DNA from: Candidatus Acidiferrales bacterium
Lineage (GTDB): Bacteria > Acidobacteriota > Terriglobia > Acidiferrales > UBA7541
Assembly: GCA_035934015.1 (NCBI GenBank)
Contig: DASYYH010000008.1
Span: 62,001 to 126,000, forward strand
Direction of reading: 5' to 3'
DNA: 64,000 nt
The position numbers and the translations under genes are program-made. The notes under the pieces were generated by a model. It ran no database searches. It was given only the letters and a program-made list of their open reading frames with translations, and was not told where the DNA came from. This document shows positions 6,560 to 8,822 of the stretch, piece by piece. Numbering within the stretch: position 1 is the first letter of the stretch; every line of letters starts with the position of its first letter.

Positions 6560-6706
6560 GGCGGCGCCTCGAATTACCTCTCGTACATCGTAATCCCCAA
6601 TGCGCGCCAAAACCGCGCCAGCGTCCTCTGAGGCTTCCAAAGAGGTAACTGTCCCATCGCCCATTCTTGCTTTTGCTCCAAGCGCCGCATCAGGCCCGGT
6701 TCTTGT

Positions 6707-7180
6707 TCACGGGGCCACGGGAGTTTGCTGCGAGAAGAATGCGTGCCATTCGCCGTCTTTCCAGATGAAAAAATCCGCGGATCTCGTTGCCCTCAGCTTG
6801 CCGTCAGGAGCGGTAAAACTGGATAGCGCGTAGGCAACCGCCACGTTCTCGTGGATCATGACCGTGACTTCAGGGATTCGCGGAATTTTCAGGTTTTTGC
6901 CGCGATTCTTCGCCGCCATTTCCAGTTCGTCGCGAAGATACTTCAACTCTCCGTTGCGGCGAATTTCCCTGTAGTCCGGACTCAGCAAACAGCCCTCAAG
7001 TTGCGTATCTCCTGTGAGGAAGGCCATCGACCACGCATGTTCCAGATGTTGAATGGTTGCCGCGTTCTCGCGCTGGTTGGCAAGCTGCGGCAGACTGCAC
7101 GAACCGGCTGCCCACGAAGGTGCGGCTAATAAAACGAAAAGGCAAGCCAATCCCAGGATCTTGCTCTTTGTATGCTTCAT
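6707..7180 (-). CDS. Secreted NTF2-like (DUF4440/SnoaL-type) protein
   Basis: The 157-residue protein has a signal peptide (KILGLACLFVLLAAPSWAAG) and then a small alpha+beta cone fold typical of the NTF2 superfamily. Its features are helix AATIQHLEHAWSMAFLTGD, strand GCLLSPDYREIRRNGE, and C-terminal strands VAVAYALSSF and SADFFIWKDGEWHAFFSQQT. Family members include ketosteroid-isomerase-like enzymes and binding proteins, so function cannot be fixed. The ATG at 7180 was chosen over a frame 125 codons longer because that extension is Arg/Lys-rich and has no domain, whereas this start gives a clean signal peptide. A similar secreted protein is encoded at 34437-34937. Confidence 0.7.
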   Translation of the reverse strand: MKHTKSKILGLACLFVLLAAPSWAAGSCSLPQLANQRENAATIQHLEHAWSMAFLTGDTQLEGCLLSPDYREIRRNGELKYLRDELEMAAKNRGKNLKIPRIPEVTVMIHENVAVAYALSSFTAPDGKLRATRSADFFIWKDGEWHAFFSQQTPVAP

Positions 7181-7460: not shown

Positions 7461-8822
7461 ATGATTCGCTTCCGGATTCGAAATGCCCTGGCCTTGATTC
7501 CCTTTACTTTCTTGCTCGCTGCTCCGGGCGTATTTGCGAAACCTGCCGCAGTCATCTCCGCCGCTGCGCCCGCGCCTCAGACTCAGCCTCCTGTCTCCGC
7601 GCAGAAGCCAGCCAGCGAGGCCTCGGTTCAAGTGAAATCCTACACGCTCCCGCCGGACCTCTACGAAAAGGCCGTGAAGTACTCTCGCGCGCAATACGTT
7701 CTTTATTTCGTCAGCTTCGTCTGGGGCGTGATTGTGTTGTTGCTAGTGCTCGTCTGGCAGCTCGCGCCGAAATATCGCGATTGGGCTGGGCGCGTGAACA
7801 ATCGCTTTGTGCAAGCGTTAATTTTCGCTCCTTTGCTTCTGTTGACGATTGCAGTGCTCGGATTGCCTCCGGACATATTCGGCCACTGGCTCGGACGCAG
7901 TTATGGGATTTCCGTGCAAGGTTGGAACTCTTGGGCCTGGGACTGGATTAAAAGCCAAATCATCAGTTGCATCCTCGGCATCGTTCTCGTGTGGATTCTC
8001 TACGCCATCATCCGGCACAGCCCGCGCCGCTGGTGGCTTTATTTCTGGGTCATCACTTTGCCGATTCTCGTTTTCCTGGTTTTCCTGGCCCCGCTGGTGA
8101 TTGATCCTCTCTTCAACAAGTTCGAGCCGCTCCAGAATACCGACCCACAGCTTGTCACCGCGCTTGAGCAGGTGGTTCATCGCGCGAATATGGATATCCC
8201 GCCGGATCGCATGTTTCTGATGAAGGCCAGCGAGAAGACCAACGCCGTCGACGCCTATGTCACCGGCATCGGCGCTTCGAAGCGTGTCGTCGTCTGAGAT
8301 ACGACGATCCAGAAAATGACCATTCCTGAAACCATGTTCGTCTTCGGCCATGAAATGGGCCACTACGTCTTAGGCCACGTATACAAAGGTTTGGTTTTTG
8401 GCGCGCTTGTCCTTTTGGTTCTGCTCTACCTCGGATTTCGCGGGATGCTTTGGTTGCTCTCGCGCTGGGGCGGCGCTTGGGGCATCCGTGGCCCGGACGA
8501 CTGGGCGTCCTTGCCCGTATTGCTCTTGTGGTTCGCGATCCTTGGATTTGTGGCCTCTCCGATCACTAACACCTTCAGCCGTCACATTGAGCATCAGGCC
8601 GATCAGTATGGGCTCGAAGTCACGCACGGACTGATCCCGAACTCCAACCAGGTGGCTGCCCAGGCGTTTGAAATTCTCGGTGAAGTAGACTTGGCTGATC
8701 CCGACCCGAATCCATTCATCGAGTTTTGGATCTTCAATCATCCGCCGCTCACAGAACGCGTGAATTTCGCGCTGACCTATGACCCGTGGACGCAGGGCAA
8801 GCAGCCGGAATTTGTGAAGTGA
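7461..8822 (+). pseudogene. M48-family (Ste24-like) membrane metalloprotease gene interrupted by an in-frame TGA
   Basis: A strong AGGAGGG precedes the ATG at 7461. The frame encodes an N-terminal signal or membrane segment, several membrane helices typical of Ste24/CAAX proteases (residues about 75-210), and GIGASKRVVV. It then meets TGA at 8295-8297 (codon 279). The same frame continues without shift as DTTIQKMTIPETMFVF, the zinc motif HEMGH at codons 297-301, the downstream EHQAD zinc-ligand helix, and an ending at 8822. Relatives usually read VVVWDTTI here, so TGA most simply replaces TGG (Trp). As written, the protein stops before its active site. It may be a true nonsense mutation or a sequence error. 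The stop codon is one base from the end of the convergent P450 gene. Confidence 0.85.

Follow-up and report, generated by a model that had tools for sequence, protein, structure and literature searches.

The M48A CAAX prenyl protease 1 (Ste24p and human ZMPSTE24; PDB 4il3 and 4aw6) combines an M48_N membrane region with an M48 domain carrying the HExxH motif. A gene with these shared features is located on the forward strand at positions 7461..8822 of the window, i.e. the whole 64,000-nucleotide stretch analysed here (C8:62001-126000 of genome G000), and the solved structures closest to its product are those of human ZMPSTE24 and Ste24p (4il3 and 4aw6, E about 1e-24). The present gene differs from Ste24p/ZMPSTE24 in being bacterial, in its signal-like N terminus, and in the presence of an in-frame TGA 18 codons before HExxH. 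With recent single-nonsense bacterial pseudogenes it shares the solitary stop, the frame intact on both sides, the low dN/dS and the intact orthologues within the genus, whereas it differs from them in that the base itself is unproven, being known from the assembly alone. Bacterial selenoprotein genes, such as selD of the same genome, likewise have an in-frame TGA in a selenocysteine (Sec)-decoding organism; the M48 site, in contrast, lacks a SECIS element and Cys-containing homologs and is not a redox site. The locus is an ordinary case: a gene of known type carries either a recent single-base nonsense change or a base error. TGA is not being read in a new way here, even though the organism decodes this codon as Sec elsewhere.

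The gene comprises 453 codons and a stop. Its intact 5' part (7461..8294, 278 codons) encodes the signal-like N terminus and the Peptidase_M48_N membrane region (PF16491), and is followed by the internal TGA (codon 279, 8295..8297) and by a 3' part with an intact frame (8298..8819, 174 codons), which encodes the Peptidase_M48 domain (PF01435) with the zinc-binding motif HEMGH (codons 297-301, 8349..8363). The internal TGA is the sole stop ahead of the terminal one (8820..8822), which is likewise a TGA. When it is read through, Pfam matches PF16491 (95.6 bits) on its 5' side and PF01435 (92.4 bits) on its 3' side, with no frameshift between them. Since M48 homology in the relatives continues across the TGA, the interrupted frame is not a product of chance. 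The first-pass annotation had described an M48 frame intact on both sides of the TGA, with HEMGH and an ATG at 8316 (codon 286) beyond it, and all of its coordinates proved correct.

Analysis of codon 279 at 54 relative loci, read with regard to strand and including a few genes fetched twice from two collections, reveals TGG in 49, TAC in three, TTC in one and AAC in one, i.e. Trp, Tyr, Phe and Asn, respectively, and Cys in none; one additional locus has a gap at this position. The Trp that the first-pass annotation had expected is thus borne out, and the possibility it raised that relatives also end here finds no example, as none of the 54 loci has a stop at this codon. Among the loci read, TGA is confined to G000, and each of the other four genomes in the genus possesses an uninterrupted protease gene with TGG at codon 279. 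The difference from TGG amounts to a single-base change, a transition. Intact orthologues together with a lesion unique to one genome are what characterizes a recent nonsense pseudogene.

The G000 assembly (3.37 Mb in 28 contigs, 98.6% complete) has its relatives among Candidatus Acidiferrales and other MAGs of Acidobacteria. The first 14.4 kb of the window align end to end with contig C219 of the nearest relative, G003, at 80% DNA identity, and collinearity continues for about another 9 kb upstream of the window, giving about 23 kb in all. Within this block we found no interrupted true gene besides the M48 gene. Other G000 reading frames with stops, one at 6600-6971 and three located upstream of the window, were rejected as candidates because a longer open frame either overlaps each of them or runs antisense to it. 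Between G000 and G003 the dN/dS ratio (Nei-Gojobori) is 0.084 before the TGA and 0.068 after it, and that of the whole gene (0.079) falls within the range of six intact neighbors (0.052-0.120). In the 3' part, the changes that could be assigned to a branch, which are few, comprise eight synonymous and four non-synonymous on the G000 branch and six and four on the G003 branch, so that the former exhibits no non-synonymous excess over the latter. Selection has acted on the gene before and after the stop up to very recent times, if it does not continue today. With dN/dS low in both parts and similar to that of intact neighbors, the stop is either very recent, leaving as yet no time for decay, or an error of the assembly.

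The reading we favor, by little more than an even judgment, is a recent loss-of-function allele of the M48 CAAX protease gene due to a single nonsense change. It would have arisen by the TGG to TGA substitution in an otherwise intact gene that was selected until recently. If the base is real, translation would stop after the N-terminal membrane helices, yielding a 278-residue protein devoid of the zinc site, and the protease would therefore be inactive in this strain; we infer both that the base is real and that the product is inactive. The TGG codon and the absence of a stop in four of four genomes of the same genus speak for such an allele, which would be very young and would affect a gene apparently dispensable in the family. 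Among 89 genomes of the family, 15 (six of the 50 of high quality) have no match to the gene, and several of the orthologues present are themselves broken. That in G087 (L086) has a TAG at residue 141, those in G010 (L087) and G097 (L089) have a change of frame with loss of the HExxH region, and those in G096 (L088) and G095 (L091) also have frame changes. These breaks in related MAGs suggest either repeated loss or assembly faults. As a control, tyrosyl-tRNA synthetase (TyrRS) was searched in the same 89 genomes, and one strong match contained an isolated in-frame stop, a TAG (G075:C117:4573-5595), which indicates that isolated errors or lesions occur in these assemblies at about one per 80 genes. 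M48 breaks outnumber those in TyrRS by too little for a firm conclusion. Independent breaks in several MAGs, combined with absence from others, suggest that the family tolerates losing the protease, as far as draft MAGs and a small difference from the control allow. If the base is real, G000 would add another case of loss to this family of uncultured Acidobacteria, in which the CAAX-type protease gene is repeatedly broken or missing.

The main competitor of the nonsense allele, and one to which we assign a probability a little short of even, is a base error in the assembly or an artefact of strain mixture, in which case the true genome encodes Trp and a full-length protease. All but one base of the gene is intact and under purifying selection, the one exception is a transition at a codon that is TGG in all of the nearest relatives, and the TyrRS control likewise contains an isolated stop in one draft genome; moreover, the young age and intact flanks that the nonsense allele entails are equally expected from an error. 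Against this, there is no direct sign of error, the assembly is good by the contig number and completeness given above, and no second interrupted gene accompanies this one in the collinear block. The literature was searched for reports of stop-codon errors in assembled metagenomes, with no useful result. The real nonsense allele and the base error are hence close to equally likely, and we give the nonsense allele a slight edge in view of the good assembly and the apparent dispensability of the gene. Of the explanations put forward at the outset, recent loss and base error are those that survive tests of recoding, Sec insertion and restart.

We consider it highly improbable that UGA 279 is instead translated, whether as Trp through readthrough or as Sec via an unrecognised signal, to give a full-length membrane protease, and each of the two routes even more so. 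A new selenoprotein deserves consideration here as the genome contains the Sec machinery: a tRNA-Sec gene with anticodon TCA (G000:C11:322690-322784, L044), SelB (G000:C6:121038-122918) and SelD (G000:C8:23885-24829, L075), the latter two scoring above the cut-off, while FdhA, sought as a Sec control, gave no good match. The presence of tRNA-Sec and SelB identifies the organism as Sec-decoding. The selD gene, located outside the window on the same contig, has one in-frame TGA near its start, about 46 kb upstream of the M48 TGA. Downstream of this codon lies a strong hairpin, with a folding energy of -26.9 kcal/mol over 50 nt and the apical loop GGUCU about 19 nt away. It agrees with the published bSECIS model (as summarised in PMC13188914), in which a small apical loop 16-37 nt from the TGA has a G at its first or second position, and thus serves as a positive control; with its in-frame TGA and textbook bSECIS hairpin, selD is by its sequence evidently a selenoprotein gene itself. 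After the M48 TGA, in contrast, no hairpin fits the model, the following 41-66 nt fold no better than shuffled sequences (z +0.75 to +1.45), and an Rfam search around the codon returned nothing. Some bSECIS elements depart from the model (PMC13188914), hence failure in the hairpin test is not by itself conclusive. Cys homologs exist for nearly all selenoproteins (PMC13188914; see also PMC1794560), and the lack of Cys or Sec at codon 279 in all 54 relative loci, where Trp or another residue is found, provides a second, independent argument from the alignment; furthermore, residue 279 is not catalytic. Without a SECIS element, and with the TGA replacing Trp rather than Cys, Sec at this position is very unlikely, and with selD as the control we rejected it. 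The organism could in principle recode UGA, but the M48 TGA lacks the signals. The locus may serve as a calibration case, in that even in a Sec-decoding genome an isolated in-frame TGA needs both a SECIS element and Cys homologs before recoding is called.

Partial readthrough by near-cognate tRNA-Trp, which would maintain some full-length protease, has an equally slight probability. It would restore the usual residue, as the lost codon specified Trp, but the tRNA-Trp found in G000 has the normal CCA anticodon and, as we read its D stem, a C at position 24 instead of the A of an A24-type (Hirsh) change; RF2 is present; and no relative shares the stop at codon 279. On the same observations we rejected a suppressor tRNA and reassignment of TGA to Trp, for which a tRNA-Trp with anticodon UCA and loss of RF2 are expected. 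Genome-wide recoding, already judged unlikely in the first-pass annotation, is excluded by RF2, the CCA anticodon of the tRNA-Trp found and the terminal TGA of the M48 gene itself; TGA is also the commonest stop (24) among the 51 long frames of the window, some of which are not genes.

The proposal made earlier that translation restarts at the ATG at 8316..8318, giving a separate 168-residue catalytic fragment and a split protease, is the least probable of all and finds no support, because, although this ATG starts 19 bases after the TGA ends and ahead of HEMGH, the 20 bases before it (GAGATACGACGATCCAGAAA) contain no Shine-Dalgarno-like GGAGG, Met286 is unremarkable and frequently conserved in stop-free relatives, and the fragment would be missing the initial portion of the M48 domain together with every M48_N helix.

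We also found three further proteases with an M48 domain in the same genome, which have another architecture and which we read as HtpX-like and periplasmic types.
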